From positions 16,723-80,722 of the forward strand of contig JAAFIG010000021.1 of the NCBI GenBank assembly GCA_013298595.1: a stretch of 64,000 nucleotides of DNA, read 5' to 3'. This document shows, one piece after another, positions 10,226-57,110 of the stretch. Both the position numbers and the translations under genes were made by a program. Source of the DNA: Deinococcales bacterium. Lineage in GTDB: Bacteria > Deinococcota > Deinococci > Deinococcales > JAAFIG01. The notes under the pieces were generated by a model that was given only the letters and a program-made list of their open reading frames with translations, ran no database searches and had not been told where the DNA came from. Position 1 is the stretch's first letter; each line of letters opens with the position of its first letter.

Positions 10226-10748
10226 TCTCGAGGTACGTGTAAATATCTGCGTGCCAATCGGCAATAAGTTCTAAGAATCGCGCCCAATCTCTGGCATACA
10301 AAGCTCGAGTGGCTTCTTCGTAATTGGGTGCATCGCCAGTCATACTGGTCATAAAACGACTCATGGCTTCGATGGTTTGTCGTGTTTTTTCTTCGCTCGA
10401 GTTGCGTGTCACTTCGATTAAACGCCTCAAGGTTGCTGATGCCCCACTCGGTTGAGCCTCGAGCCATTGCCAGTGACGTGGTAGCAAAGTCACTTCGCGG
10501 CTGGTCACACCAAGTTTTGGTCTGCCACGCCCAGTCTGGACTGGTGGTATGGCTCGAGCGAGGATTTCTTCTGGGCTGCCACGAAAATCAAAATCGATTT
10601 GTTTGCCTGTTATATCTGCAAAGATCAGCATGTGGTGTTCGCCATGCTGTTCGATATGCTTTTTTGTCTCGAGTAGCATTGTTTCGAGGTTACCGTGGGC
10701 AATGCGTTTTTGTTGATAAAAACTGGTGTAAGTATCTTGGTTTTCCAT
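10194..10748 (-). CDS. DUF2239 family protein, probable autoregulator
   Basis: The 184-residue protein matches the DUF2239 pattern, notably GRGRPKLGVTSREVTLLPRH followed by WQWLEAQPSGASATLRRLIE. That segment resembles a ribbon-helix-helix DNA-binding module (strand SREVTLL plus two helices). The upstream region has two copies of ACCCAGATAAAA overlapping the promoter, so self-repression is likely. The -10 TAAAAT lies six bases before the ATG, giving a leaderless mRNA. The molecular role of the family is not established. Confidence 0.8.
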   Translation of the reverse strand: MENQDTYTSFYQQKRIAHGNLETMLLETKKHIEQHGEHHMLIFADITGKQIDFDFRGSPEEILARAIPPVQTGRGRPKLGVTSREVTLLPRHWQWLEAQPSGASATLRRLIEVTRNSSEEKTRQTIEAMSRFMTSMTGDAPNYEEATRALYARDWARFLELIADWHADIYTYLETSIQKCLTAQ

Positions 10749-10753
10749 GATTT

Positions 10754-10800
10754 TATTTTACCCAGATAAAAAGGTTTGTCAATTCTACCCAGATAAAATA
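10754..10800 (-). promoter_or_regulatory. Promoter with two operator copies for the DUF2239 gene
   Basis: On the minus strand TTGACA (10782-10777) and TAAAAT (10760-10755) are 16 bp apart, and the transcript would start at or next to the ATG. TTTTA-CCCAGA-TAAAA (756-771 of this kb) covers the -10 and spacer. A second copy, TTCTACCCAGATAAAA (783-798), covers the -35 edge, 27 bp away. The arrangement fits repression by a dimeric regulator bound side by side. Confidence 0.65.
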
Positions 10801-10819
10801 AGTTATTAGGCTTAGCAAC

Positions 10820-11323
10820 TCACCAACCCTGTGTACCGAGTTCGCCTTTAAATGGACCAACTACATCAGCTGTAATCCAACCACCATAAAAATTTCCTGC
10901 TTGCGCTGTGACTCGTTCATCGTCAACAAAACAACCATCGCCCGCTTGTATCACAACTCGAGACGCGTAAAAAGCAACATGATTTTGTAAGGCAAAATAG
11001 GCTTTGGTAGGGTTTGGATAGAACCAACCCACACTTCGTTGCAATTGCGTTCCAATACTTAAATCGTAATAAGCAGCTTCACCTTTGAATTCACAAAAGC
11101 TCGAGGCTGTACTGCGCTGCAAAAACTCGAGTTTGATATCCTCGGGTGGCACATAATAACTCGGTGGATGTGAAGTCTCGAGTAAACGTAAAGCCTGTGT
11201 TGAATCGGCTAAAACAAGCCCACCTGAAATAATCCGAATACGTTTTTTACAAACCTCGAGTCTTGGTGGACGAGGATAATCCCAAACACTTTCTTGTCCT
11301 TGTTGTGGTACAATTTTTTTCAT
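10820..11323 (-). CDS. DUF427 domain protein
   Basis: About 167 residues covering a full DUF427 domain: ESVWDYPRPPRLE, then LVLADSTQALRLLETSHPPSYY and a GWFYPNP strand. These beta-tent proteins are widespread and of uncertain enzymatic role. I use ATG 11323: a TAGACT hexamer lies six bases before it, which fits a leaderless start; a GTG three bases earlier is less likely. It is transcribed toward the DUF2239 gene but separate from it. Confidence 0.85.
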   Translation of the reverse strand: MKKIVPQQGQESVWDYPRPPRLEVCKKRIRIISGGLVLADSTQALRLLETSHPPSYYVPPEDIKLEFLQRSTASSFCEFKGEAAYYDLSIGTQLQRSVGWFYPNPTKAYFALQNHVAFYASRVVIQAGDGCFVDDERVTAQAGNFYGGWITADVVGPFKGELGTQGW

Positions 11324-13278: not shown

Positions 13279-14040
13279 ATGACAACCCAACCCATTGCTT
13301 TTATTACTGGTGCAGCCCAAGGTATTGGTAAACGCACCGCTGAAGTACTTGCCGAACGTGGTTACGCCTTAATCCTTAACGACCTTCGCCCGACCAATCT
13401 CGAGTTGGGTGTACCAACCCTCGAGGCAACAGGTGATATTTCCGATGAAGCAGTAGTCAAACGCTTTGTAACCCAAAGCCTCGAGCGGTTTGGACGCATC
13501 GATGTGCTGGTCAATAACGCTGGTATTAGTTGCATCACACCCGCCGAAGATACAAGCCTCGAGCAATGGGAACGAGTGATGGCGGTCAATTTAACCGCTC
13601 CTTTTTTGCTTTGCCGAGAATTTGGCAAGATCATGCTGGGGCAAAAAAGTGGCAGTATTGTCAATATTGCTAGTGTGGCAGGTTTGCTTGGCGTTTCGGA
13701 TCGCAGTGCGTACAACGCCAGCAAACATGGCTTAATTGGTTTGACCAAAACCCTCGCTGCCGAATGGGGCGGGCGTGGCGTGCGGGTCAATGCTGTTTGT
13801 CCAGGCTGGGTACTGACCGAAATGGATCATGCCGATACTGGTGTAGGCACGTATACCCATGCCGATATCACTGGGCGTGTACCAATGGGGCGTTACGCCC
13901 TGCCCGACGACATTGCCCAAGCTGTGGCATTCCTCGCCGACTCGAGCCAAAGTGGGTTTATTAATGGGCATAATTTATCTGTAGATGGAGGCTGGGCAAG
14001 TGATGGTAGCTGGGAGAATCTACGTTTGAAAAAACGTTAA
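13279..14040 (+). CDS. Short-chain dehydrogenase/reductase
   Basis: A 253-residue classical SDR with a Rossmann fold: cofactor motif TGAAQGIG (residues 10-17), NNAG (79-82), catalytic S132 and Y145-x3-K149 (SAYNASK), and PGWVLTEM. The acidic residue in NDLRP after beta-2 suggests NAD preference. Substrate unknown; FabG-like 3-oxoacyl reductases and sugar-alcohol dehydrogenases are closest in layout. TACAAT six bases before the ATG suggests a leaderless mRNA. Convergent with the macrodomain gene, four bases apart. Confidence 0.9.
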   Translation: MTTQPIAFITGAAQGIGKRTAEVLAERGYALILNDLRPTNLELGVPTLEATGDISDEAVVKRFVTQSLERFGRIDVLVNNAGISCITPAEDTSLEQWERVMAVNLTAPFLLCREFGKIMLGQKSGSIVNIASVAGLLGVSDRSAYNASKHGLIGLTKTLAAEWGGRGVRVNAVCPGWVLTEMDHADTGVGTYTHADITGRVPMGRYALPDDIAQAVAFLADSSQSGFINGHNLSVDGGWASDGSWENLRLKKR

Positions 14041-14043
14041 ATA

Positions 14044-14499
14044 CTATTCTCGAGGTAAAAAAACTTGGATTTGCACATCGGATAAATCTGCTAGTGCCAC
14101 CTCGAGGCAAGGTTTAACAACAACCCAATCCAAACCACCTAAACCACAGCCCAAAGCGGGCAAAGCAATTGAACGAATCTGCAACTCGAGAACAACTCGT
14201 TTTAAATCGATCAGACCAGCCTCGATGAACTCGAGCTGAGCAGGGTTACGCCAATGTTTTTTGGTTGGAAAATTAATAATCCAACGCGGTTGTGCTTGCT
14301 TGCCAGCATCAAAAACCAGCATCGAACCAATATCTAATAAACCTGCTTGGCAGGTACTGTGGTACATTTCGTAATTTTCGGGAAAACGCTTTTTGAACGC
14401 CAAAGCAATACCTTTGCCCATCACACCGACTGTATTGACAGCATTGACCAAGGCTTCGGTATTCGCGCTGAGTAAATCGCCTTCAACAAACTCGAGCAT
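14044..14499 (-). CDS. Macrodomain protein (DarG-type ADP-ribose hydrolase-like)
   Basis: A 151-residue single macrodomain. The ADP-ribose pocket is seen in GDLLSANTEALVNAVNTVG followed by VMGKGIALAFKKRFP, and the second loop is LPALGCGLGGLDW. The VMGKGIAL variant is the one found in DarG antitoxins, which remove ADP-ribose from DNA. No DarT toxin gene adjoins, and DarG's C-terminal domain is absent, so this is a stand-alone form. TACAGT eight bases upstream of the ATG is a possible leaderless -10. Confidence 0.85.
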   Translation of the reverse strand: MLEFVEGDLLSANTEALVNAVNTVGVMGKGIALAFKKRFPENYEMYHSTCQAGLLDIGSMLVFDAGKQAQPRWIINFPTKKHWRNPAQLEFIEAGLIDLKRVVLELQIRSIALPALGCGLGGLDWVVVKPCLEVALADLSDVQIQVFLPRE

Positions 14500-15612: not shown

Positions 15613-16818
15613 ATGATTTCTAAAAAAGTAGATGATTTAACCATTCAAGACATTGAAAACTTAGTAAGTACAGGTCAATCAGAAAGTCAAAGACTCGAGT
15701 ATAAACAAGAAATACGTTTTAAAGAACGAGAAGACAAAAAAGAACTCATCCGTGATTTAAGTGCCTTAGCAAACACTCAGGGCGGTTATTACATCATTGG
15801 AATTCAGGAGGAAAGGGGTGAAGCGATTGGATTGATGGGAATAGAATTAGACGATGTAGATAAATATCTCTTACAACTTGATCAAGTAATTAGGGATAGT
15901 CTCGAGCCACGTTTATTTGGGTTAAAGACACGATATTTTGAATTATCTACGGGTCGATTTGTTATTGTCATTTTTGTGCCACGCAGTCTGTTTCCACCCC
16001 ACCGAATGCGTGATGATACAATCTTTGAACGCTCAACTACAGGAAAGTACCCTTTGAATATGGATCAAATTCGCCGATTATTTACACGAGGTTTATTGCT
16101 TAGAGAGGAAATTCGCAACTTCATTCATGAACGCCAAGATTTAGTATGTACAAAACGAGATGGCGCTATTGAATTTAACGGTCATTCTGTTGTGATGGTA
16201 CATCTGATACCTTTCGCCGCTTTTGAATCGGAAATATCTATCGCAATCAATTCAAAAAATCGAGAAGCATTTGCGTCAAATATACGTCCGTTTGGACCCA
16301 ATACTGGTTGGAATTTAAATTTTAACGCAGATGGTTACATTTGGGGCGCACAAAATAATGAGAGAGGTTGGTATACCCAGCTTTTTAGAAACGGAATTTT
16401 TGAGGGAGCTTGCGATACTTTAATCAGGGACTACAACGGAATAAATGCCATTATGGTAAATCAACTAGAAATCAACACTATTGATTGGCTTGCTTAATGT
16501 TTAAAAACACTAAAAGGATTTGATATCTCTACACCATTTGAAATTGCAATTACACTACAAAATGTTAGAGATGCAAAAATACTTTATAGTGATGGATTTT
16601 CAACAGATGGATCACCTGTTAAAAAAGACGTATTTTATTTACCAACTACAACCCTTGAAAACATTGACGAATTATCATTTCTGCAAATTGATAATGTGGC
16701 AGATAGACAAACTATAGCTAAAAAACTGCAACCCGTATTTGATGTACTTTGGCAAGCAAGTGGCTTTGAACAAAGTAATAGCTATGATATCAATGGAAGA
16801 TGGTCTCCCAGAAACTAA
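15613..16818 (+). pseudogene. Schlafen/AlbA_2-type protein gene interrupted by an in-frame TAA
   Basis: The first part (15613-16497, 294 codons) has an AlbA_2 (Schlafen AAA-4) domain: SQRLEYKQEIRF, DLSALANTQGGYYIIGI and FEIRST-like FERSTTGKYPL. The TAA at 16495-16497 ends it, but the same reading frame continues open for 106 further codons to TAA 16816-16818 (CLKTLKGFDISTPFEI... to DINGRWSPRN). One nonsense change, for example CAA to TAA, would explain this. The protein may be truncated yet functional, or the base may be a sequencing error. TAGAAT seven bases before ATG 15613 fixes the start. Proteins of this kind bind nucleic acid and occur in defence and regulation. Confidence 0.75.
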
Positions 16819-16869
16819 ATGCCCATCAGGTATCCTTTTTGCACACTCACTCGAGTTTAGGTTAAGCTG

Positions 16870-17796
16870 TTACATCGATTTTTGCGAAGATTTTGCCAGT
16901 ATCATCTTGCCCAGCAATTCAATTTTTGGCAGTTGCAAATTAGCTTCGGTTAGCAGTGCAACTCGAGCAATCTCGAGGTTTAACGATTCAATTTCGGTTG
17001 GTCTGCCCAGATTGATATCTTGGAGTGTGGATATCAGTTGTCCATTGGAGCGCTTACTGACCAGCATAATTTGTTCCATCACTTCGGTTTCTTGTAAATC
17101 TAGCCCAAGTTTTTCCGTCAGGGTAATACACTCCAGAACCAATTCCCTTGCCAGTTCTGCCACTGCTTGATCTCGAGCAAAAACGCCGTTATCTATGTTG
17201 AGTAAAGGACAAATCGAATTAAATACAGCGTTTAAAATCACTTTTTTCCAAATTTCTCTTTGGATATTGCTTTCAGCTCGAAATGGAAACTTGGGAGTAT
17301 GCAAAGCATCAACGCATTGTTGTAAGCCTGTTTGGTTACCACTAATAATGCCAATCGGTGAACTGGTAACAGGGCGGAACAGAAAATGATTTTCGCTGCT
17401 GGCTTGACTGGTGACATACAAAACACAGCGGTATACTTCGGCAAATTGCGCCTCGAGAAAGGGCTTTTCAACACCAAGCCCATTTTGCATCATCACAATC
17501 GGACTGGTTGCAGCTTTTTCTTTGAGTTGCAAAGCAATGGCTTTATTGGCATAAGACTTCGTGGCAATTACAATAATGCCTTCGAGTTTGGGTAATTGAG
17601 CCAAAGAAATTGTTTCAATTGGTGCGCTTAGTTGGTGTGAATCATTATGTGCCGAAATAGTTTTAGTGCTTTTTGGTACATCGCTGGTGGTTGTTCGCAC
17701 AGCTATAACAGTTCGACCTGCATTGGCAAGATACACAGCTAATGGAGAACCCACTGCTCCTGAGCCAAGGATATAAATTGTGGCTTGCGATTTCAT
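16870..17796 (-). CDS. Ketopantoate reductase-like oxidoreductase
   Basis: About 308 residues. The N-terminal Rossmann motif is GSGAVGSPLAVYLANAG. It is followed by IVIATKSYAN and MQNGLGVE, and a helical C-terminal domain with the family's KKVILNAVFNSI and SNGQLISTLQDINLGRPTE. The family reduces ketopantoate with NADPH in pantothenate and CoA synthesis, but many paralogues act on other 2-keto acids, so I do not assign panE firmly. The reading frame may begin at 17814, four bases after the rarA stop, so the two are probably co-transcribed. Confidence 0.82.
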   Translation of the reverse strand: MKSQATIYILGSGAVGSPLAVYLANAGRTVIAVRTTTSDVPKSTKTISAHNDSHQLSAPIETISLAQLPKLEGIIVIATKSYANKAIALQLKEKAATSPIVMMQNGLGVEKPFLEAQFAEVYRCVLYVTSQASSENHFLFRPVTSSPIGIISGNQTGLQQCVDALHTPKFPFRAESNIQREIWKKVILNAVFNSICPLLNIDNGVFARDQAVAELARELVLECITLTEKLGLDLQETEVMEQIMLVSKRSNGQLISTLQDINLGRPTEIESLNLEIARVALLTEANLQLPKIELLGKMILAKSSQKSM

Positions 17797-45180: not shown

Positions 45181-46335
45181 ATGAAATTGTTTCGTTGGTC
45201 ATGGTTACTCGCATTTGGTGTTGCTGGCGTTGTTTTAGCCCAACAAACAGTATCGGTGCTGATTAATAATAAAACAGCGCAACTCGAGACTGTACAGCGT
45301 AATGGCAAGGTTTTTGTGGAGGCAGTAGCATTTGCTAAAGCGCTTGGTGCAACCGCTAAACTCGAGGGGGGCAAACTTAGTGTAACAACAGCCAATGCAC
45401 CTTTGTATACGCAAGGCACAACTCAGCAAGCAGGTGGGATAGGTGTGCTGGGGCAGTCTTATACACTTGGGCGGACAAAACCGTTAAATTTTTTGTTACG
45501 CAGTGCTGAATTTCAAGTCTCGAGGGTTGTGATTGGTAGTGAAATTTATGCACCAAGCTTGGATCAAAAATTATTGTTATTGCGTGGTACGGTGCAAAAT
45601 CCACAAAAAGTCGAAGCGTATTTATCCAATTATCATTTTAAATTAACAGCTGTGGATACAAATGGCGAAAATCATGTGTTTGCGAATTTTCTAGGCAGAG
45701 AAGGCAGTACTACGGCTTTAAATCTTTACTTAAAACCGACACAAAAAATAGACGTTTTTATTCCAATTCTGGTGCCTGCCAAAGGTACTATTCCTAAGTT
45801 GATTATCGAAAATAAAGACGAAAATGGCTCACCTGTATTGCGTTACGATCTGAGTAAATCTATTCGTGGTTTAAGTGCGCCTTATGCAGCTACTGACCCT
45901 TTTACAGCCTTATCCGTTGTGACCGCCACATCGGGTGTGTATTACTCAACAAAAAAATTTGATTTTAAACTCGCTTCAGTTGATTACTCAACTGAAGCCA
46001 TGACTAATGAATCACTCGAGCCATCAGAGCGCTTGTTGCTGGCAACTTTTGTTGCTCGTAACCCAATAGATAACTCTGATAGTCGGTATTTATTAGACTT
46101 AAAAAATGACCTCGAGTTTAGTGCCTTAGATGCGGATGATAATATCAACAAAGCGTTGTACGACTGGTATAAAGTCAGCCGACCTGAACCACTGCGTGAA
46201 TTCCCACAAATGGTCTTTAATCAAGAAGCCAAATTCCGTATTGCTTTTAAAATTCCTCGAGACCTGTTGGTAAAAAAGCTCAAAGTTCGTGGTGGATTAC
46301 GTGATTTTGTTTTTGATGTTTCGGGTACGAAATAA
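45181..46335 (+). CDS. Secreted protein with copper amine oxidase N-like (stalk) domain
   Basis: 384 residues. Signal peptide LLAFGVAGVVLAQ. The N-terminal 60 residues (VSVLINNKTAQLETVQRNGK and VEAVAFAKALGATAKLEGGK) match the copper amine oxidase N-like fold, which acts as a structural stalk. The rest (to 384) has two immunoglobulin-like beta regions with LLRGTVQNPQ and LLATFVARNP in repeated context. No active site. TACACT lies seven bases before the ATG. Confidence 0.75.
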   Translation: MKLFRWSWLLAFGVAGVVLAQQTVSVLINNKTAQLETVQRNGKVFVEAVAFAKALGATAKLEGGKLSVTTANAPLYTQGTTQQAGGIGVLGQSYTLGRTKPLNFLLRSAEFQVSRVVIGSEIYAPSLDQKLLLLRGTVQNPQKVEAYLSNYHFKLTAVDTNGENHVFANFLGREGSTTALNLYLKPTQKIDVFIPILVPAKGTIPKLIIENKDENGSPVLRYDLSKSIRGLSAPYAATDPFTALSVVTATSGVYYSTKKFDFKLASVDYSTEAMTNESLEPSERLLLATFVARNPIDNSDSRYLLDLKNDLEFSALDADDNINKALYDWYKVSRPEPLREFPQMVFNQEAKFRIAFKIPRDLLVKKLKVRGGLRDFVFDVSGTK

Positions 46336-46440
46336 GTTTGCATTACAATTTTAAGATGCAGCTGTCACTCGAGATTTCGAGAATACTACTCACCTACAAT
46401 CTCTAGGCAACGTGTTTTCAATTACCTCAGGGCAAAAAGT

Positions 46441-46470
46441 ATAACAACTGCAATCGAATGCAGTTGTTAT
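46441..46470 (+). terminator. Probable terminator hairpin
   Basis: Perfect 12-bp stem ATAACAACTGCA/TGCAGTTGTTAT with loop ATCGAA; the T-run is weak (GGGTTGTTATTT). It follows the stalk-domain gene. Confidence 0.6.
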
Positions 46471-46551
46471 GGGTTGTTATTTAACCTGCCTGACACATTT
46501 TAATGTGTAAGATACTCCTATGTGCGCTTTTCCACATCGCGTGTAAAATGC

Positions 46552-46644: not shown

Positions 46645-47013
46645 ATGGCAAAAATCATCGCTGTAGACGATTCAATGGCAGACTTAAAACTCGAAGAATC
46701 TATTTTAATCGGTGCAGGACATCAAGTTTCTTTGTGTATCAATGGTGATGGTGTCGAAGCGTTAATCGCTGCCGAACAACCCGATCTGATTTTGTTAGAT
46801 GTTGTCATGCCACAGCGCAATGGATACGAAATTCTACGCAAATTACGCCGCGAAGAAAGCAGTAAAGGCATTCCTGTTTGTATTATCTCGAGTAAAGATC
46901 AACCTACAGATATCGAATGGGGCAAACGCCAAGGTGCCTCGGATTACTTACCAAAACCCTACACTGCCGATGGTTTATTGGCAATGGTGGCTCGTTTAAC
47001 CGCTAAGGAGTGA
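46645..47013 (+). CDS. Single-domain response regulator (PilH/CheY-like)
   Basis: 122 residues, a complete receiver: acidic pair DDS at 8-10, phospho-acceptor D52 (LILLDVVMP), threonine/serine in CIISSKD and lysine in YLPKPY. No output domain. I start at ATG 46645 after CGAGG; the longer frame is leader. First gene of the chemosensory operon. In PilG/PilH systems such proteins receive phosphate from the CheA-like kinase and act on pilus motors. Confidence 0.9.
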   Translation: MAKIIAVDDSMADLKLEESILIGAGHQVSLCINGDGVEALIAAEQPDLILLDVVMPQRNGYEILRKLRREESSKGIPVCIISSKDQPTDIEWGKRQGASDYLPKPYTADGLLAMVARLTAKE

Positions 47014-47018
47014 ATGCA

Positions 47019-47477
47019 ATGGTATCAAATCGTGTTTGTGTGGTTCGTTTCGGACAGCATATTGTTGCTGTTCCAGGCGCGTATGCTCGGCAAATTCATA
47101 GTTTAACCGAGTTGCGCCGCACACCCCGAACCCCAAATACATTACTTGGTTTATTTGCAGTCCGCTCACAAGTGATACCTATTGTGACACTCGAGCCTTT
47201 ACTTGGTCTAAACATCGAAAAACATGAATTTGCTGTACAACTCGAGTTTGAAAAAAAGCAATTTGGTTTTGCCATAGATGCAGCTCTAGGATTTGTAGTC
47301 TTTGAAAGTGCCCCTTTTTCCGATACAACTTTAGATGCAATTTGCGAAGGCGGTATGGTATTTGAAGGTAAAACCATTGGATTGTTGGCTTTACCCAAAT
47401 TAATACAGTCTCTCTCGGGTATTTTTGCTCCACAAGCCCCTCGTTTTTTTGCACCTGCAACTCAAGCGTTGTCCTAA
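47019..47477 (+). CDS. CheW/PilI-like adaptor
   Basis: 152 residues. The CheW fold is recognised from CVVRFGQHIVAVPGAYARQI, TPNTLLGLFAVRSQVIPIVT (the family's G.inlRG.i.pv.dl position) and FGFAIDAALGFVVF. It would couple the receptors to the CheA kinase. ATG 47019 lies eight bases after AAGGAG, which overlaps the end of the upstream gene. It is diverged, so CheW is called on position and fold. Confidence 0.8.
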   Translation: MVSNRVCVVRFGQHIVAVPGAYARQIHSLTELRRTPRTPNTLLGLFAVRSQVIPIVTLEPLLGLNIEKHEFAVQLEFEKKQFGFAIDAALGFVVFESAPFSDTTLDAICEGGMVFEGKTIGLLALPKLIQSLSGIFAPQAPRFFAPATQALS

Positions 47478-47531
47478 AATTCTGGTTTTTGTTGTGAATG
47501 TGCTTGGTTTTTCCAAGCTGGAGGTTTGAAA

Positions 47532-49844
47532 ATGAATACAACCAAAGATAAGCCCAAATCCTCGTTATTCGGTCGTAAAGCGGCTGAGAAGCCGAGTTCT
47601 TCGATTACTTCGGTAGAATTTGAAAGTCCTACCAGTGCCAACTTGCCACGCGGCGGCTTTTTGGTATCTACACGTTTGTTGTTATTGGTGCTTGCTTTGG
47701 CATTGCCTTTAGCGTTAGCCACATTTTTGGTTTTAAACCAACAACAACAAAGTATTAACAACGCTTCTCGAGAACGTGATGGTGCAGAGTATCTACGCAC
47801 TGTTGGACAATTATTGCAACGTTTTTCCGAGCACCGCAGCTTATTAACACAACAACGTTCTGGTGCTCAAAGCATCTCACAAGCTCGTCAGAAAAAAGCC
47901 GAGGAAATCAACACTCAACTTGGTGCTTTAGATACTTTAGATAATCGTTTTGGGGCTACTTTCCAAAGTAAAGAAAATTATGCTCGAGTCAAAAGCAGTT
48001 GGCGTGCCATCGAGGAGAGTTTTGCAACCTCGAGTGCTGATAGTAATTTCGAGTCACATAACCGTTTAATTCGTACCGAGATGTTTGATCTGATTCGTAC
48101 CATTGCCAATAATTCCAATTTGGTTCTTGACTCTTCGTTGGATACGTATTACACCGTTGATTTGGTAACCGATAAATTACCAAGAATTGTGGATAATATC
48201 GGTCAGGTTTCTGGTTTAGGCGTTGGTATTCTCAGTCGTAAACGCATTGTTGAAGACGAAAAATTCCGTATCAATTCTTTGTTATCCCAAATTCGTGCGG
48301 GTTTAAGTGAAGCTGAACGTTCGGCTGCTTTTGCTGCAAAAGCCAATCCAAAAGAACTTAATCAATTTAGTTTGCAACAAAATGGCTTTAATCGTGCTGC
48401 CGAAGGGACACTCTCAGATGTTGTAGATCGCACTTTTATTCAAGGTATCACCAGTGTTGTTGGTGGCTACCCAGTCGAAACTTTTTTGAATGGTATGAAT
48501 CGGTTATTGACCAATTACTATAGTTTGTACGATAACGCTTTGGTTAAACTCAATCAGTTACTTAAAGACCGTGTCAATAACTTGCAGAATATTCAACGCA
48601 TTGGTTTACTGGCGTTGCTGGGCTTATTTGCACTTGTGGCTTTCTTAGCTTTCTTGATTACCCGTTCAATCACTAAACCATTATCTGATATGTCTAAAGT
48701 GGCTGAAAAATTCGGTTCAGGCGATTTATCAGAATCCATGCCTGTTCGCTCGAGAGACGAAATTGGTCAATTAGGTCAAGCCTTTAATACCTCGGTTGTG
48801 CAGTTGCGTAGCTTCCTCGAGGAACAACGCAATGAAGGTATTCGTTCTAAGCAATTGCAAGATAACATTGGTGATTTCTTGAATGTCGCCATGGATATCT
48901 CTGGTGGCGATCTGACCCGTAAAGGTAAAGTTTCTGAAGACGTACTTGGAAACGTTGTAGACGCTATTAACTTAATGACCGAAGAATTCGGGTATCTACT
49001 CAAAGATGTGCAATCAACCACCGAGCAAGTCAATAATGGAGCACGGCAATTAACCCACGCCAGCCGTAACATTGTGCAAGGTGCTGTAGCCCAAGAAGAA
49101 ATCGCGCAACAAGCGCAATCGCAAGCCCTTTTGGTCAGTCAGCAAATTGAAGAAATGTCTGGTACTGCTGCCAATACCGCGTTGATTGCACAACGTACCC
49201 TCGATGCCAGCCGTGAAGGTCAGCAAGCTGTGCAAGAAACTTTGACTGGTATGAATGCCATTCGTCGCGAGGTCAGTAACATCTCGAAATCGGTTAAAAG
49301 CCTTTCGGATCGTTCGCTCGAGATTCAAGAAATCGTGGATACCATTTCGGGTATTGCTGCTCAAACAAACTTGCTTTCTTTAAATGCTGCGATTGAAGCT
49401 TCGGGTGCAGGTGAAGCTGGTGCGCGTTTTGCGATTGTGGCAGACGAAGTGCGTCGTTTGGCAGAAGATTCCGCTAAATCCACAAGCCGTGTCGCAGGTC
49501 TGATTAAGAGTATTCAAACCGAAATTCAGGGTTTGGTAATTGGTATTGAAGACGGTACAAAAGAAGTGGAACAAGGGTATAAAATCGCTTCACAAGCAGG
49601 TAATCAGCTCGAGCAGATTGCACAATTAGCACAACAATCCTCTGATTTCGCTTCGCAAATTTCCGAGGTAACCCGCAGCCAAGTAGGTCGCGTGCAATTG
49701 GTAACGCAAGCTGTGCAGAACATCGCTGAAACCGCGCAAGCGGCTCGTGAACAAAGCCAAAGCGGTCAGAATAATGCCGAGCAATTACGTCAACTCGCCC
49801 AAAACCTTGCCTCGAACCTCGAGCGTTTCCGTTTACCTGCCTAA
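47532..49844 (+). CDS. PilJ-like methyl-accepting chemoreceptor 1
   Basis: About 770 residues. Cytoplasmic start of 45 residues, first membrane helix ([21 protein letters not shown]), a 280-residue periplasmic helical sensor, second helix near 355-376 ([18 protein letters not shown]), HAMP ([18 protein letters not shown]), and a second HAMP-like segment around 443-490. The signalling domain has the hairpin tip [21 protein letters not shown] and [19 protein letters not shown]. The tip is close to the canonical one, so CheW/CheA docking is expected. GGAGG precedes ATG 47532. Confidence 0.93.
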
Positions 49845-49857
49845 AGGAGTGTAAAGC

Positions 49858-51795
49858 ATGACTGCATTTGAGCAAGTAAATAACACTCAACAAACTGGTT
49901 TGGGTCGTTCGCGTGGTATGGGCAATTGGCTTAATAACTTAGCTGTGTTGTGGAAAATTGCTTTGATCGCTTTGGTCTTAGCCATTGGTATGCTTTTATT
50001 GGTGATTACAAGTTTAAGTTTTACTGCCGTTCTACGGTTTCATACCAATAATTTGTATAGTTTCATGCTTATTCCAATCAGTAGTTTACAAGAAGCTCGG
50101 TTGAAATCTATTGAGACAGTGCGAACACTCGAGGTACTAGATTCATCGCAGACAGTGTTAGATACCGAGCAAAAGCAAGGTGTTTTCGATCAAGCAAAAG
50201 ATTATGCTAAGCAAATCAATGAGATCATTGATCGGTATAGTAAGGAATGGGTCACAACCACAAGCCCTGAATTTACAGCCATTTTACAAAAATATGGGCA
50301 ACAAAAAGCCCAAGATAGCGAAGTTCTACAACTCAAAGAACTGAACGCCTTAAATACCCGTATGAACGCCACATTAGATGCTTTTATTAAAGCCAAAGGC
50401 AACACCCCTGTCGGCAGTGCCGAATTAACCAGTGGGTACTTTGAAATCAGTGATCGTTTACAAGATTTGATAAATCTCAATTTAGATTTTGCAAAACTAT
50501 CTGACCAAGATGCAGCTATAGCTGGGCGTAACGGTGTTATTCTCGAGTTTGTTGTATTTGGCGTTGTACTTTTGGTAGGTATTGGTACTGTAGCATTGAT
50601 TGCTCGCTCAATTACACAGCGTTTAGCAAAACTCGAAACAGCTGCTCGAGCTTTGCGTAGTGGTAATTTAGATTTTGAAGCTGATGTTTCTGGACGCGAC
50701 GAAATTGGTTTGGTGTCTGGGGCTTTAAATACTTCGGTGGCACAGTTAAAGAATTTGCTCAGCGAACAAAACCTCGAGCGTGAACGTGGTATTGCTTTGC
50801 AAGCCAATGTTTCACAGTTCCTTGGTGTTGCTATGGATATTGCTGGTGGTGATTTAACCAAAAAAGGTCAGGTTACCGATGACGCACTTGGTAATGTGGT
50901 AGATGCAATTAATCTGATGACCGAAGAATTCGGTGCACTCCTTGGTAATGTACGGGCTGCGGCAAATCGGGTCTCGAGTGGCGCGAATACCATGACCGAA
51001 ACCTCGCAGAGCATTCTTGGTAATGTGCAATCTCAAGCAGCTTTGGCTAAAGGAGCTGAATCGCAAACCAATCGTGTGGCACAAGCCATGCAGAGTTTGG
51101 CAATGACGGCTGATAAGGGTGCAACGGCTGCTCAATTTACCTTAGAAGCCTCGAGTGTTGGTACGCAAGCCGTGGCGCAAACCCGTGAGCAATTCACAGC
51201 CATTCGTACACAAATGCTTGAGATGGTGCAAGGTATGCAGAACTTGGCACAGCGCTCCGATGAGATTAACGAAGTGGTGCGTACCATTTCTCGTTTTGCT
51301 TCACAAACAAATCTTTTGGCACTTGGTGCGTCACTCGAGGCAGCAGGTGCTGGTTCGGCGGGTGCACGTTTCGGTGCTGTGGCAAATGCGGTGCGTACAC
51401 TGGCAGATGATTCTGCAAAAGCCGCCAGTCGTATTACTGGTATCGTGAAAGATGTACAAACCGAAATTCAAAGCTTATCTGTGCGTGCCTCTGACGGTGC
51501 CACCCAAGTGCAAAAAGGTACTGAAATCGCAGCTCAAGCTGGTGAACGCTTAGACCGTATTTCCGATTTGGCAAAACAATCCTCTCAGGTGGCTCAAGAC
51601 ATTGCAGCCTTAGCAACTGAACAAGCAGAATCGGTCGAAGCTGTACGTGAAAATGTGACACAAATTGCCTTAACTGCTCAGACCACCGAAACTGGTACTC
51701 GTCAAGGTGGCGCGGCAGCTTCTGAGTTGCAAACCCTTTCGCAAAGCCTGACTCAAAGCCTCGAGCGTTTCCGTCTGCCGAGCGCAGCCAATTAA
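49858..51795 (+). CDS. Methyl-accepting chemoreceptor 2 with altered tip
   Basis: 645 residues. Membrane helices near 32-58 and 224-250, periplasmic sensor of about 165 residues, HAMP, second HAMP-like segment, and a signalling domain. The tip reads NLLALGASLEAAGAGSAGARF and AVANAVRTLADDSAKAAS: relative to receptor 1 the asparagine-alanine and the glutamate of EVRRL are replaced. It thus may bind CheA/CheW less well or act as partner of receptor 1. AAAGGAG precedes it. The two receptors share the C-terminal domain closely, so they are duplicates. Confidence 0.92.
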   Translation: MTAFEQVNNTQQTGLGRSRGMGNWLNNLAVLWKIALIALVLAIGMLLLVITSLSFTAVLRFHTNNLYSFMLIPISSLQEARLKSIETVRTLEVLDSSQTVLDTEQKQGVFDQAKDYAKQINEIIDRYSKEWVTTTSPEFTAILQKYGQQKAQDSEVLQLKELNALNTRMNATLDAFIKAKGNTPVGSAELTSGYFEISDRLQDLINLNLDFAKLSDQDAAIAGRNGVILEFVVFGVVLLVGIGTVALIARSITQRLAKLETAARALRSGNLDFEADVSGRDEIGLVSGALNTSVAQLKNLLSEQNLERERGIALQANVSQFLGVAMDIAGGDLTKKGQVTDDALGNVVDAINLMTEEFGALLGNVRAAANRVSSGANTMTETSQSILGNVQSQAALAKGAESQTNRVAQAMQSLAMTADKGATAAQFTLEASSVGTQAVAQTREQFTAIRTQMLEMVQGMQNLAQRSDEINEVVRTISRFASQTNLLALGASLEAAGAGSAGARFGAVANAVRTLADDSAKAASRITGIVKDVQTEIQSLSVRASDGATQVQKGTEIAAQAGERLDRISDLAKQSSQVAQDIAALATEQAESVEAVRENVTQIALTAQTTETGTRQGGAAASELQTLSQSLTQSLERFRLPSAAN

Positions 51796-51803
51796 GAGAA
51801 ATC

Positions 51804-54716
51804 ATGACTGCTTATGCCCGCCCATCAGATTTAATCGAAAGTTTCCTCGCTGAAGCCTGGGAAACCACTGGTGAACTTGAATCGTCACCTTTTCTACTGG
51901 CTCATCCCGATGGTATTCGGCGATTAGTCGTGGCTTCGCATCGCTTAAAAGGCAGTGCTGGTTTGTACCAATTTTCTGAAATCTCGAGTTTAGCTGGTTT
52001 GTTAGAACGTGTTTTTGAAAGCGCCCATTTATTTGGTAACGAAGAACGGCGTTTAACCCTGGATTTCTCGGCACAAGTCACAGCTGTGCTGTCCGAAGCC
52101 CTCGAGCGCATTCAAACAGCTGGCGATGAAGGCGAACCTGGTTTGGCGTTGGCTGCCCTTGGTGGTGGCGATTTGTTGCAACGCTTACTGGCGTTTAATC
52201 CAACACATTTTCGCCGTAGTGAAGCACAAATGGGTGATAGCCAAGGTTTTATCGAAGAACTTGGTGATACCAACACCCAATCTGTTAACATAGATACCGC
52301 TGGGCAATTACGCGATGAATTACAACGCTTTTTTCGTCAACAACCCGATGTTTGGGAATATTTTGCCCCTGAAATGCTCGAGAATTTAGAATTGGTTTCA
52401 CATGGTTTAGAAACCCTCGAGAAAGAAGATCCAACCCCTGCTATTAACGAGATGTTCCGTGGTTTTCACACAGTCAAAGGAGCAAGTTACTCAGTTGGTT
52501 GTAATCCGATTGGTCAATTAGCCCATCGTCTCGAGGATGCACTGGTGCTGATTCGTGATGGTCAAAGCACTTGGAATGACCAATTTGGTAATGCTGTTGC
52601 CCAAGGTATTGATGGTTTAAGCCGTATGATTGCTACTGCCGAAGGACGCGAAGTGGCACTGGCTGGGGCACTCGAGGCAACCCATCAAGCATTGGATGTT
52701 ATTTTAGGGGTACAGCGTATTCCAGAACCTGTTGTTGCTCCAGCAGTACAAGTTAAACCTGTTACTCCAGCCCCGGCTGAACCAGAAAATACAGATCAAA
52801 CCGCCAATGCTTCGTTGCGGGTTGGTGTTAATCGTCTCGAGCGAGTGCTCAATTTATCGGGTGAAGTGCTGTTAACCCGTGCTCGTTTTGATAATTTTTC
52901 CCGCCGACTCGAGGATTTATCTGATTTGTTAGCAGGTAGCCGCGCTCGTCTTGAAAAAACCAGTGCAGATATCACCGAGCGTTTTGGCAATCCCAAATTT
53001 ATGGCAACCGAAGAACTCGAAACACCACTCGAGCCAGAGTTACCTGCCGAACCACAAAGCCAATTGGTCGAAGATGTGCAAGCCATGTTTTCCGAACTTG
53101 AATTTGATCGTTACGACGACACCAGCTTAATTGCTCGTGGTGTTGCCGAGTTAACCGCCGACATTGGCGAGTTGCAAAACCAACTCGAGGATTTAGGGCG
53201 CGGCTTTAAACGCGAAACCCAAGATTTCGAGAAACTTACGCGTTCATTGCGTTTAGAAGCAGGTCGTTTACGGCTTGTGCCACTCTCGAGGTTATACCAG
53301 CGTTTACGTCGCCAAGTGCGAAGCACCAGCCAAGCTGTGGATAAACTGGTGCGCCTTGAACTCAGTGGTGAAAATGTTGAAATTGATAATTTGGTACTCG
53401 AGAATCTGCTCGATCCATTTATTCACCTTGTCAACAACGCTGTTATTCACGGTATCGAAGCCCCCGATCAGCGTCGCCGTCGGGGTAAAGATGCCAATGG
53501 GTTAGTGCGCGTTAGTGCCATGCGGCGCGGTGCTAACTTAATTATTGAAATCCAAGACGATGGCGCAGGTATTGACCTTGAAACAGTCAAACGCAAAGCC
53601 CTCGAGCGCAACTTAAAAACCCCCCAAGAACTGGCTGTCATGACCGAGGAAGCTGCCGCTGAACTGATTTTCCTACCTGGTTTATCCACTGCCTCGAGCA
53701 TTTCAGATCGGGCTGGTCGTGGTGTGGGTATGGATGTGGTAGCCAACAATATTCGCCGCTTAAATGGCGCTGTTTCAATCCAAACCGAAATAGGGTTTGG
53801 TACGCGTTTTACCCTGCGTATCCCAGCCAATTTAATTGTTTCCGATATTCTTGGTGTCAAAGTTTCAGGTGAACACTTTGCTGTGCCCGCCGAAACTGTT
53901 CGGGCATTACGTAGCTTAGACATGCGCGATGTCAAAACCCGCCCTACCCCAGAAGGGATTGAGCGCTACTTCCAATTACAAAACGAAGATTTCACCCTCA
54001 GCCACCTTGCCGATATTCTCGAGTTACCACGCAGTATCAACGATAGCAAACGCTTAAACGTGATGATTCTCGAAAGCGAAGCAGGACGTTTAGCCTACGA
54101 AGTAGACACCATGATCGGACTCGAGCAAGCTGTGGTCAGGCAACTTGATGCGCCATTTGATCAAATTGCCCATATCTCAGGTGCATCGGTCAGTGCCGAA
54201 GGTGATGTTATTTTGATGCTCGATCCAAACGGTTTAGCCAAGCTCGAGCGTGGTGAAATCAACGCACCTGCCACCATCCAAGTTCAGCGCCGCACCCGTA
54301 TGCTCTTAGTAGACGATTCCTTATCGGTACGTAAAGTGGTTTCTGGTTTGCTCACCCGTATGGGTTGCGATGTGATTACCGCCTCGGATGGCGAAGAAGC
54401 CTTAACCATTATCACAGGCGATCTCGAGTTTGATGCGATTATCACCGATCTTGAAATGCCTCGCAAAAGCGGTTTCGAGTTGCTTGATGAACTGCGCCGC
54501 CGCCCAGCCTTTGCTAAACTACCCGTAGCCATGCTCACCACCCGTGCCAGTGATAAACACCGCGAATTTGCTTTAGCCCTTGGTGTTTCCGAATACTTCT
54601 CTAAACCCATAGATGAAGCCCGTCTCGAGCGTTTCTTATTACGTGTTCGCAGTGAACAAAATACAAGTTTATTTAACTTCACCGATATCGCGCAATTACA
54701 TCTGGAGGACGCATGA
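51804..54716 (+). CDS. Hybrid CheA-type histidine kinase (ChpA/PilL-like)
   Basis: 970 residues. First Hpt at about 1-105 with phosphorylatable H46 (VASHRLKGSAG), second Hpt with H222 (MFRGFHTVKGASYSVG), dimerisation helices near 355-500, ATP-binding domain with N-box HLVNNAVIHGIEAP, G1 DDGAGID and G2 GRGVGMDVV, CheW-like docking domain, and a C-terminal receiver from about 832 with acceptor D882 (IITDLEMPRKSG). Two Hpt sites and one receiver make an internal phosphorelay possible. Such enzymes control type IV pilus motility. Confidence 0.94.
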   Translation: MTAYARPSDLIESFLAEAWETTGELESSPFLLAHPDGIRRLVVASHRLKGSAGLYQFSEISSLAGLLERVFESAHLFGNEERRLTLDFSAQVTAVLSEALERIQTAGDEGEPGLALAALGGGDLLQRLLAFNPTHFRRSEAQMGDSQGFIEELGDTNTQSVNIDTAGQLRDELQRFFRQQPDVWEYFAPEMLENLELVSHGLETLEKEDPTPAINEMFRGFHTVKGASYSVGCNPIGQLAHRLEDALVLIRDGQSTWNDQFGNAVAQGIDGLSRMIATAEGREVALAGALEATHQALDVILGVQRIPEPVVAPAVQVKPVTPAPAEPENTDQTANASLRVGVNRLERVLNLSGEVLLTRARFDNFSRRLEDLSDLLAGSRARLEKTSADITERFGNPKFMATEELETPLEPELPAEPQSQLVEDVQAMFSELEFDRYDDTSLIARGVAELTADIGELQNQLEDLGRGFKRETQDFEKLTRSLRLEAGRLRLVPLSRLYQRLRRQVRSTSQAVDKLVRLELSGENVEIDNLVLENLLDPFIHLVNNAVIHGIEAPDQRRRRGKDANGLVRVSAMRRGANLIIEIQDDGAGIDLETVKRKALERNLKTPQELAVMTEEAAAELIFLPGLSTASSISDRAGRGVGMDVVANNIRRLNGAVSIQTEIGFGTRFTLRIPANLIVSDILGVKVSGEHFAVPAETVRALRSLDMRDVKTRPTPEGIERYFQLQNEDFTLSHLADILELPRSINDSKRLNVMILESEAGRLAYEVDTMIGLEQAVVRQLDAPFDQIAHISGASVSAEGDVILMLDPNGLAKLERGEINAPATIQVQRRTRMLLVDDSLSVRKVVSGLLTRMGCDVITASDGEEALTIITGDLEFDAIITDLEMPRKSGFELLDELRRRPAFAKLPVAMLTTRASDKHREFALALGVSEYFSKPIDEARLERFLLRVRSEQNTSLFNFTDIAQLHLEDA

Positions 54717-55444
54717 AAGCTATGATTGTCAGTGCTGACACAGCACGCGTACAGATGTTAGCTGTGCCTCTCAAAGCCAATGATTTCCAAGTCGAAATGG
54801 CATCTACTGCCATGCACGCTGCCAGTATGCTCGAGCGTTCACAACCCGATGTGATTATCTGCGAAGCTGTGCTCAGCGATATGAGTGGTTGCGATTTACA
54901 CGAAATTATTCGCGGCGACCCCAGTTTAGTCACCACTGGCTTTATTTTACTTGCTCCCGAGAAACCGGCTGAGTTTGAAATGCGTAAACACGACTTGGTT
55001 ATGAACCCAAATTCCAATCCAACCGATATTGCTTTAATTGCTAAACGCCTTGTCCAAGAAGTCTTAACCCAAGTCAACAGCGAAATCCGTGCCAGTCAAG
55101 AACGTGCTCCCAGTATTGGTGGTTCACTTGACGATGCCGATTTATTAAATTTGGTGCAATGGTTAGCCAAATCCAATAGCACAGGCAAACTGGTTATTCA
55201 CATGGATGGCGCATATGGTGGCATATACTTTTCTCAAGGTAGACCAACCCATGCCGAATACAATGGACGTATTGGCGAAGAAGCCGTGATTCGCTTATTT
55301 GGACAAGCCAGCCATGCCATTCAAGGACATTTCTCTTTTGAAAAACTCGAGCCAGACGCGCTTGACTTGCAAACCAGAACCATTCGCAAATCCCTATTCC
55401 AATTATTGATGGAACTCGCCAACTTTGAAAGCGTCTCGAGATAA
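54713..55444 (+). CDS. Pseudo-receiver plus PATAN (DUF4388) protein
   Basis: 243 residues. The first 120 form a receiver-like fold without the active site: the acceptor aspartate is E51 (VIICEAVLSDMSG), the acidic pair DD is SAD, and the lysine is missing (VMNPN). The C-terminal domain is PATAN/DUF4388: DADLLNLVQWLAKSNSTGKL, then GGIYFSQGRPTHAEYNGRIG. PATAN proteins bridge signalling and pilus motors in cyanobacteria and Deinococcota. Overlaps the CheA stop by four bases, so translation is coupled. Confidence 0.85.
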   Translation: MKAMIVSADTARVQMLAVPLKANDFQVEMASTAMHAASMLERSQPDVIICEAVLSDMSGCDLHEIIRGDPSLVTTGFILLAPEKPAEFEMRKHDLVMNPNSNPTDIALIAKRLVQEVLTQVNSEIRASQERAPSIGGSLDDADLLNLVQWLAKSNSTGKLVIHMDGAYGGIYFSQGRPTHAEYNGRIGEEAVIRLFGQASHAIQGHFSFEKLEPDALDLQTRTIRKSLFQLLMELANFESVSR

Positions 55445-55462
55445 CATCGGAGAAAATAACAT

Positions 55463-56281
55463 ATGAAAATTTTAATCGTAGATGACTCCGTAAGCGTTCG
55501 CAAAGCCCTCGAGCGTTTGCTTGCCCCGCGCCAATACCATGTTTTAAGTGCCTCGAGTGCCGAGCATGCGATGGAATTAATCAGCAATGATGTGCCACAA
55601 CTGATTATTGCTGATGTCGTGATGCCAAACATGAACGGCTTTGAGCTAACCGCAAAACTCAAAAGTTTAGATCGTTTAAGACACGTTCCTGTGCTTTTAA
55701 TTAGCGGTATTGTCGATGCTGCTGTCACTGCCCAAGCCAAAGAAGCTGGTGCAGAAGGCGTGGTCAGTAAACCATTCACCCCAGAAGATTTATTCCCACG
55801 TATAGATGCGGCTCTTGCCAAAGCAGGGCAAGCCGAAGTTCAAGAACCACTGGCGACACTCGAGCCAATTGATATTCCAGAAGTTGTCGAAATCGCCCCA
55901 AAGGTAAATACAGGTCATGGTGTGGATTTCAGCAATCACCTTGCCCCTTTCCTTGAGAAACCAGAAGTCGAAACAGTGCTGATTGTTGCCACCACCGTAG
56001 ATGCTAGTGTGCTTGCCGAACATGGTAAACCACTCGACGAAGCCCCATTGATTGGTACGTATGTTCGGACTTTAACCAGCATTTCCAATGGTTTAGGTAT
56101 CAACTTAGGAGGCGAGGATTTACATAGTTTCTCGCTCGAGTATCAAGGCAAAAGCTTATTGGTCAGCCGCATTAACGATACCAGTGCCATTGCCTTAATT
56201 GTCAACGCACCAAGCGTACCAAGTACTGTGCGTTATCTTGCCACTCGTCAAATGCCAAGCCTGCAACAAGCCTTCGCATAA
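55463..56281 (+). CDS. Receiver plus roadblock/LC7-like protein
   Basis: 272 residues. N-terminal receiver with D51 (IIADVVMPNMNG), DDS pair and VVSKPF lysine, so phosphorylatable. After a Pro/Glu-rich linker (to about 150) comes a 110-residue domain resembling roadblock/LC7 (TVLIVATTVDASVLAEHGKP, then TYVRTLTSISNGLGIN, FSLEYQGKSLLVSRIND and TSAIALIVN). Roadblock proteins such as MglB regulate Ras-like polarity GTPases; no MglA partner is in the window. Eighth-position output of the chemosensory operon. Confidence 0.78.
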   Translation: MKILIVDDSVSVRKALERLLAPRQYHVLSASSAEHAMELISNDVPQLIIADVVMPNMNGFELTAKLKSLDRLRHVPVLLISGIVDAAVTAQAKEAGAEGVVSKPFTPEDLFPRIDAALAKAGQAEVQEPLATLEPIDIPEVVEIAPKVNTGHGVDFSNHLAPFLEKPEVETVLIVATTVDASVLAEHGKPLDEAPLIGTYVRTLTSISNGLGINLGGEDLHSFSLEYQGKSLLVSRINDTSAIALIVNAPSVPSTVRYLATRQMPSLQQAFA

Positions 56282-56283
56282 CC

Positions 56284-57048
56284 GTGGAAAGCCAGCCATT
56301 CTCGAGATTATCTATCGTTTACGACGCAATTTTTGCTGATGTCGAATACACCGATTGGTGCGAGTTTAGTCTCGAGGTACTCCAAGAACTTGGTTGGCTT
56401 GAAGCAAAAACAGGATATAAACTGCTCGATGTTGCTTGTGGAACAGGCAACAGTGCTCTGCCCTATCTTGAACGAGGATTTATTGTTTCAGGAGCCGATG
56501 CCAGCGCTGATATGCTCGAGATTGCTAAGCAAAAATTAGACAATGCATCATTATTTCAACAAAGTTTTCTTGAGTTAAACACAGGTCAGCAATACAAAAT
56601 CATCACTTGTCTATTTGATAGTTTAAATAATTTGCTTGCACCAACCGATCTTGAAAATGCACTACAAAGAATTTATTTGCACCTCGAGTCAGAAGGGGTT
56701 TTTGTCTTTGATTGCAACACCCCACTTGGTGTTACAGACCTCTGGGATGATAACGAATTCAAAGGCGAAGTCCGCCTCGAGAATGGCTTAGCGCATTACC
56801 ATTGGACACACCAAGCCTTAGAACCCAACCTCGGTGAGGTAACAGCCCAAATCTGGATTATGGACACCCAAGGGGCATTACAACAAGAATTCAGCGAAAC
56901 CCATCTTGAACGAGGTTACACCCATACCCAACTCGAGACACTGCTACAAGCTGTTGGTTTTGCCGAAACACATTTTTACGAATACCCAGATGGCGCAGAT
57001 GTCACCAGTCAAACCCCACGCTTTTGGGGGTTCGCTAAAAAAACATGA
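56284..57048 (+). CDS. Class I SAM-dependent methyltransferase
   Basis: 254 residues from GTG, two bases after the previous stop. SAM-binding motif I is LLDVACGTGNSALPYLERG, motif II acidic loop SGADASADML, and motif IV CLFDSLNNLLAP. It is not CheR-like (no CheR N-terminal domain). The tight spacing places it in the chemosensory operon, where it could be incidental. Small-molecule or protein methylation; substrate unknown. Confidence 0.83.
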   Translation: MESQPFSRLSIVYDAIFADVEYTDWCEFSLEVLQELGWLEAKTGYKLLDVACGTGNSALPYLERGFIVSGADASADMLEIAKQKLDNASLFQQSFLELNTGQQYKIITCLFDSLNNLLAPTDLENALQRIYLHLESEGVFVFDCNTPLGVTDLWDDNEFKGEVRLENGLAHYHWTHQALEPNLGEVTAQIWIMDTQGALQQEFSETHLERGYTHTQLETLLQAVGFAETHFYEYPDGADVTSQTPRFWGFAKKT

Positions 57049-57076: not shown

Positions 57077-57110
57077 AAAAAGACGAAGGCAGCCTGCACC
57101 TTCGTCTTTA
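57077..57110. terminator. Bidirectional terminator
   Basis: AGACGAAGG (57081-57089) pairs with CCTTCGTCT (57099-57107) and A/T runs flank it. It separates the chemosensory operon from the convergent peptide transporter operon. Confidence 0.85.

Follow-up and report, generated by a model that had tools for sequence, protein, structure and literature searches.

In this study, we analysed a window of 64,000 nucleotides from a Deinococcales bacterium (contig 14, positions 16723-80722, of a 4.58 Mb genome that is 94% complete) and describe a pilus-type chemosensory gene cluster of Deinococcota at 46645-57048 of this window. Its seventh gene (55463-56281, forward strand), publicly annotated as 'response regulator' only, encodes a protein in which a phosphorylatable receiver (D51) is joined by a low-confidence linker to a C-terminal domain that, according to well-supported structure models, has a roadblock fold close to that of MglB. 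The receiver-roadblock protein is inherited together with the CheA of the array, and it is a candidate for coupling a chemosensory array directly to the Ras-like polarity switch known from other bacteria. As far as the literature searched shows, what seems to be new is that a conserved response regulator conceals an MglB-like domain, that it is strictly co-inherited with CheA across the phylum and that it is present in Deinococcus radiodurans; a receiver-roadblock regulator of Deinococcota was not described in the papers searched.

The roadblock/LC7 domain comprises residues 155-272 (55925-56278, forward strand) with the secondary structure order H-E-E-H-E-E-E-H. The copy in the window matches the Pfam roadblock model with an E value of 0.036 and 14.2 bits, which is under the cut-off of 23, and a match at E values up to 1 was obtained for 11 of 15 orthologues, the best at 7e-5. 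Searched against the PDB, a profile of the domain gave modest matches (E 0.0045-0.053) to an archaeal roadblock protein, Myxococcus MglB and CvnB5, while a sixth match at E 0.2 was unrelated; a profile-profile comparison with the MglB and other roadblock proteins of the source genome gave an E value of 2.5e-7 over 111 columns. The full-length model has at its C-terminus, with high confidence, a helix, two strands, a helix, three strands and a helix, and the domain modelled alone with AlphaFold2 (AF2) reached a predicted local distance difference test (pLDDT) score of 90.5 and a predicted template modelling (pTM) score of 0.84. The matches listed when the domain alone was searched with Foldseek are roadblock-containing proteins (best E 3.4e-7), and VIA-align superimposed it on an archaeal roadblock protein with a Z score of 18.2, on Myxococcus xanthus MglB with 17.7 (1.9 Å, 116 residues), on Thermus (Tth) MglB with 15.8 and on MglC with 11.7. 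A PDB fold search with the full-length protein returned receivers only, because the receiver domain fills the match list. The original prediction had read the C-terminal region as a roadblock domain, and on this point fold, profile searches and orthologues agree.

The receiver-roadblock gene is found in 29 of the 30 genomes that encode this CheA and in none of the 81 that do not, a count over 111 genomes that is uncorrected for shared ancestry; the sole exception with CheA is a genome that is 85% complete (G106). In two relatives the gene lies off the cluster, on another contig and in an unrelated neighbourhood, yet has been kept (L064, G002, 16816-17601; L065, G003, 13337-14137). Thermus possesses MglA and is missing both this CheA and the receiver-roadblock protein. 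The nearest named relatives of the source genome are uncultured Deinococcales metagenome-assembled genomes, followed by Meiothermus, Calidithermus and Trueperaceae, and the order receiver, CheW, receptors, CheA, DUF4388 protein, receiver-roadblock protein is kept in the latter three as well as in other Deinococcales, with one to three receptors. An identical cassette order is present on megaplasmids of D. radiodurans, D. wulumuqiensis, D. proteolyticus and D. aetherius. A comparison within Deinococcota had been suggested along with the prediction, and since the seven-gene order recurs across the phylum the cluster is not a chance assembly; its first seven genes form an ancient cassette of Deinococcota. 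In our own tree, which was built without cyanobacterial CheA and without curated class references, the Deinococcota CheA proteins form one separate clade (support 100/99).

The receivers of the cluster differ in their phosphorylation sites. Both the single-domain receiver RR1 (46645-47010), a CheY/PilG-like protein, and the receiver of the receiver-roadblock protein carry the complete site D12, D13, D57, S87 and K109 (CheY numbering), and D7, D8, D51, S81 and K103 are invariant in 15 receiver-roadblock orthologues. The protein encoded between CheA and the receiver-roadblock protein (54713-55444) combines a degenerate receiver, which at 27.6 bits is below the Pfam cut-off of 30.2, with a C-terminal DUF4388 ('PATAN') domain at residues 137-236 (PF14332, E 1.8e-11, 44.6 bits compared with a cut-off of 25). 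Here the acid pair D12 and D13 and the lysine K109 are lost in 21 of 21 orthologues, while the phosphoacceptor aspartate is missing from 16 of them but still present in five, among them that of D. radiodurans. It had been predicted that this receiver cannot be phosphorylated owing to a glutamate, E51; the residue was identified correctly and the acid pair and lysine are lost in addition, but E51 is not the conserved point, as other orthologues carry D, S, T, N, G or L at this position. For the same reason we rejected the idea that E51 acts as a phospho-mimic: it is a detail of this lineage, and the constant feature is that the acid pair and lysine are gone. With the sites intact in two proteins and lost in the third, the phosphate output should run through RR1 and the receiver-roadblock protein, and no response to it is expected from the DUF4388 protein.

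We take DUF4388 (PF14332) and PATAN to be one domain; PF14332 matches are present in Synechococcus elongatus, although a literature search found no paper naming the two together. PATAN regulators bind the pilus motor PilB in Synechocystis (PMC10519157), and binding between cyanobacterial PATAN proteins and PilB has also been described in PMC7690835. No cyanobacterial PATAN protein turned up in a search of plasmids. The source genome has 19 DUF4388 matches, and on contig 56 a stand-alone DUF4388 gene is located 44 bases upstream of pilT and in line with it (L056:9325-10449 (-), 10494-11318 (-)), a pair that supports a link between DUF4388 and the pilus motor in the source organism.

The hybrid CheA (51804-54716) contains Hpt1, Hpt2, dimerisation, HATPase, CheW and C-terminal receiver domains, and both histidine phosphotransfer (Hpt) domains keep the phosphorylatable histidine (His46 and His222). 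Receptor 1 (47532-49844; MCPsignal E 1.2e-32) is a methyl-accepting chemotaxis protein (MCP) with two transmembrane helices, a HAMP domain and a signalling domain; its start was placed at the ATG at 47532, which has GGAGG upstream, while the longest open reading frame (ORF) begins at 47526. Receptor 2 (49858-51795; MCPsignal E 4.7e-31) has the tip LALGASLEAAGAGSAG, which has diverged from that of receptor 1, as had been predicted. The tip form LALGASLEAAGAG of receptor 2 is also found in a Thermaceae genus (L066, L067) and the second receptors of Meiothermus have the tip LALNA[AS]FEAAGAG, so that divergence of the second receptor is not confined to this cluster but extends further across the phylum. 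That both receptors are joined in a single array, as the prediction had it, is an interpretation.

We propose that the two membrane receptors, via CheW, would control the two-Hpt hybrid CheA, which would phosphorylate RR1 and the receiver-roadblock protein. Once phosphorylated, the receiver-roadblock protein would change its binding through the MglB-like domain, the most likely target being the GTPase switch formed by MglA and MglB. It might, for instance, pair with MglB in the way that the Myxococcus roadblock protein MglC joins RomR and MglB. As a consequence, the pole of active pili would be reversed or biased. The DUF4388 protein would serve as an unphosphorylated adaptor, most likely on a pilus motor. 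Of this scheme, we infer the phosphotransfer, the action on MglA/MglB and on a pilus motor, and the lack of adaptation. That this is a type IV pilus (Tfp)-like chemosensory system of Deinococcota in which CheA phosphorylates the receiver-roadblock protein to act on MglA/MglB polarity, with the DUF4388 protein as adaptor and probably without methylation, has in our view about an even chance of being right. The more specific claim that a phospho-switched roadblock protein directly couples the array to MglA/MglB across Deinococcota, as a one-protein counterpart of RomR/MglC and without methylation-based adaptation, is put forward tentatively, as one somewhat more apt to fail than to hold.

The partners required are encoded in the source genome. 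The original prediction proposed a search for mglA-like and pilT/pilB genes, and it yielded a genuine MglA (PDB E 1.3e-100), a genuine MglB (PDB E 1.7e-56 and over the NCBIfam MglB equivalog cut-off), one long PilB-like ATPase and three shorter PilT-like ATPases, one of them over the PilT-family cut-off. MglA is present in 29 of the 30 array genomes. The proximity of PATAN genes to mglA and mglB has been described before (PMC4316618), and according to the same paper MglB homologues near PATAN genes were already reported by Makarova et al. 2006.

The cluster itself has neither CheR nor CheB, as predicted, but this does not extend to the genome, in which CheB is encoded on contig 27 and CheR on contig 45. 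These belong to a second, split chemosensory system, with CheW, MCP, CheA and CheB on contig 27 (L058:6350-12474 (-)) and CheW and CheR, the latter with weak TPR matches, on contig 45 (L059:7648-9428 (-)). In a genome-wide profile search, CheB and CheR were missing from nearly all array-bearing Thermaceae genomes, nearly all Meiothermus among them, most of which are 99% complete; the exceptions are partial matches to both in one genome (G075) and a CheB match below the cut-off in another (G095). Site scans, with the E. coli MG1655 che region as control, found no strict methylation consensus in receptor 1 or receptor 2 compared with four in E. coli Tar. Pilus-type receptors of proteobacteria often lack the strict consensus too. 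Since CheB and CheR are missing from nearly all of these Thermaceae genomes and the window receptors have no strict consensus, the system probably works without receptor methylation in that family; in the source genome, the CheB of contig 27 and the CheR of contig 45 may be cross-used by this array.

In make-up the cluster is closest to the cyanobacterial tax clusters, and the pilus class of chemosensory systems itself is a known kind. Like the tax/Pix systems (Synechocystis tax1-tax3), it combines CheW, MCP, CheA and a PATAN regulator with a plain CheY in a single cluster (PMC5812497), and in the tax/Pix/Pil systems PATAN is tied to PilB (PMC10519157). CheB and CheR had no match in the S. elongatus control genome, though CheW did. 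However, cyanobacterial PATAN regulators have the PATAN domain at the N-terminus, in front of the receiver (PMC10519157), whereas in the window protein the receiver is N-terminal, with its phosphorylation site lost, and the DUF4388/PATAN domain follows it; the receiver-roadblock protein is an addition relative to the cyanobacterial systems. With Pseudomonas Pil-Chp the cluster shares a receptor, CheW, a multi-Hpt hybrid CheA and CheY-like receivers, but Pil-Chp has the methyltransferase PilK and the methylesterase ChpB, whereas the window cluster is without CheR and CheB and has DUF4388 and roadblock outputs. The layout thus differs from Pil-Chp, as had been claimed, though it has a precedent in the tax/Pix clusters (PMC5812497). 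P. aeruginosa possesses Pil-Chp and has no homologues of the MglA/MglB polarity system (PMC12632253).

The Frz system of Myxococcus, with RomR, MglC, MglB and MglA, is alike in that a chemosensory input feeds into a polarity module that includes the receiver RomR together with the roadblock proteins MglC and MglB (PMC10329633). RomR and MglC form a complex with MglB that is broken by MglA-GTP, and how Frz acts on the polarity module has been described as unknown (PMC10329633). Receiver and roadblock are separate proteins in Myxococcus, while here they are one protein encoded with the array. The domain has the same fold as MglB of Thermus and Myxococcus (Z 15.8-17.7 over 116 residues), but it is only 12-15% identical to these proteins and is fused to a receiver. 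A receiver-linked output domain of Thaumarchaeota, NitrOD3, is likewise related to roadblock (PMC5847659). Among 62 loci outside Deinococcota no roadblock gene was found near PilG-like receivers at E values up to 0.05; weak DUF4388-domain profile matches were seen in Blastocatellia and Desulfobacterota loci of the same set.

Apart from the shared ancestry of the genomes counted, several points weigh against a phosphorylated receiver-roadblock protein that acts on MglA/MglB. The domain is diverged, with 12-17% identity to the closest solved structures, and the roadblock signal fades further in Deinococcus. Members of that genus are cocci without rheotaxis (PMC12393216), so that pole reversal makes less sense there. 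As mglA is present in 99 of the 111 genomes, its co-occurrence gives no specific support. Several further roadblock proteins of the genome, as well as its second Ras-like GTPase, are alternative candidates for the partners.

With regard to such partners, contig 34 (L061:7015-8717 (+)) carries adjacent genes for a DUF4388 protein, a small GTPase (ATP_bind_1/Ras-like) and a roadblock protein, and a further Arf/Ras-like protein is found at C6. On contig 59, three small roadblock proteins are encoded in tandem (L060:3050-4210 (-)), of which the third falls slightly below the Pfam cut-off; no GTPase was seen in the 8.4 kb of that contig. It is conceivable, given these modules, that the roadblock domain acts on the GTPase of the contig 34 trio or on the Ras-like protein at C6 rather than on MglA, and that the array steers a different module; we consider this unlikely, since MglB, which partners MglA, is among the closest solved structures and we saw nothing that ties the contig 34, C6 or contig 59 modules to the chemosensory cluster. 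Roadblock proteins dimerise, and the divergence of the domain, with 28-50% identity outside the closest genera compared with 54-72% for the receiver, would fit a structural role; the domain might then be a dimerisation or scaffold module only, with the protein acting directly on pilus motors or the array and no GTPase involved. This too appears improbable, as the fold is specifically that of the GTPase-regulating roadblock group and in view of the few domain residues that are invariant (P162, L164, G188, S206, G212, E226 and R257). Control of a non-motility function such as natural transformation, adhesion or exopolysaccharide, in the manner of alternative-cellular-function (ACF) systems, has a low likelihood: the window CheA shows the multi-Hpt architecture with C-terminal receiver that is found in Tfp and ACF classes alike (PMC10782961) and hence is not exclusive to Tfp, Deinococcus are cocci and the cluster contains no pil gene, but pilus motors are present in the genome, a DUF4388 gene adjoins pilT and PATAN regulators bind PilB in cyanobacteria (PMC10519157, PMC7690835).

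The proposed coupling of the array to MglA/MglB through the receiver-roadblock protein is of interest because one protein, inherited with the array, joins a phosphorylatable receiver to an MglB-like domain, and this bears on the array-to-polarity link that is unknown for Frz (PMC10329633). The system occurs in culturable bacteria, Meiothermus and D. radiodurans, and Thermus, with MglA but neither array nor receiver-roadblock protein, provides a natural comparison to them which makes the question testable. It also offers a hypothesis on function for D. radiodurans genes that are annotated only as 'response regulator' and 'DUF4388'.

All eight genes predicted for the unit, from receiver to methyltransferase, are present in the predicted order and with the predicted domains according to the ORF list and Pfam. 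They lie on the forward strand and are almost gapless, with overlaps or gaps of at most 55 bases, and are thus operon-like. RR1 (Pfam Response_reg, E 6.8e-21) and CheW (47010-47477; Pfam CheW, E 2.4e-12) are the first and second genes of the conserved cassette. The eighth gene encodes a class I S-adenosylmethionine (SAM) methyltransferase (56284-57048; Pfam Methyltransf_25, E 5.9e-13), which is probably co-transcribed with the chemosensory cluster here. It has no counterpart in the related Deinococcota clusters compared and, on this comparison, is a local addition outside the conserved cassette. A role as CheR replacement was considered and rejected, as the protein matches only general class I methyltransferase models, not the CheR model PF01739, and has no such counterpart.

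Just upstream of the unit, at 45181-46335 (forward strand), is an ORF of 384 residues whose start resembles a signal peptide and which matched nothing in Pfam or NCBIfam. Terminator-like hairpins, identified by consensus match only, are located upstream of the unit (46440-46471, forward strand) and between the unit and a convergent oppF-like gene (57079-57109, reverse strand), in a scan that was weak, with 19 hairpins found compared with 12.8 expected. An MHYT membrane protein (PF03707, four repeats), a gene that the window cluster does not have, is encoded among the receptor genes in Meiothermus clusters generally (e.g. L046:5701-6456 (+)) and in one close relative (L079:10814-11569 (+)), where it is possibly an extra sensor.
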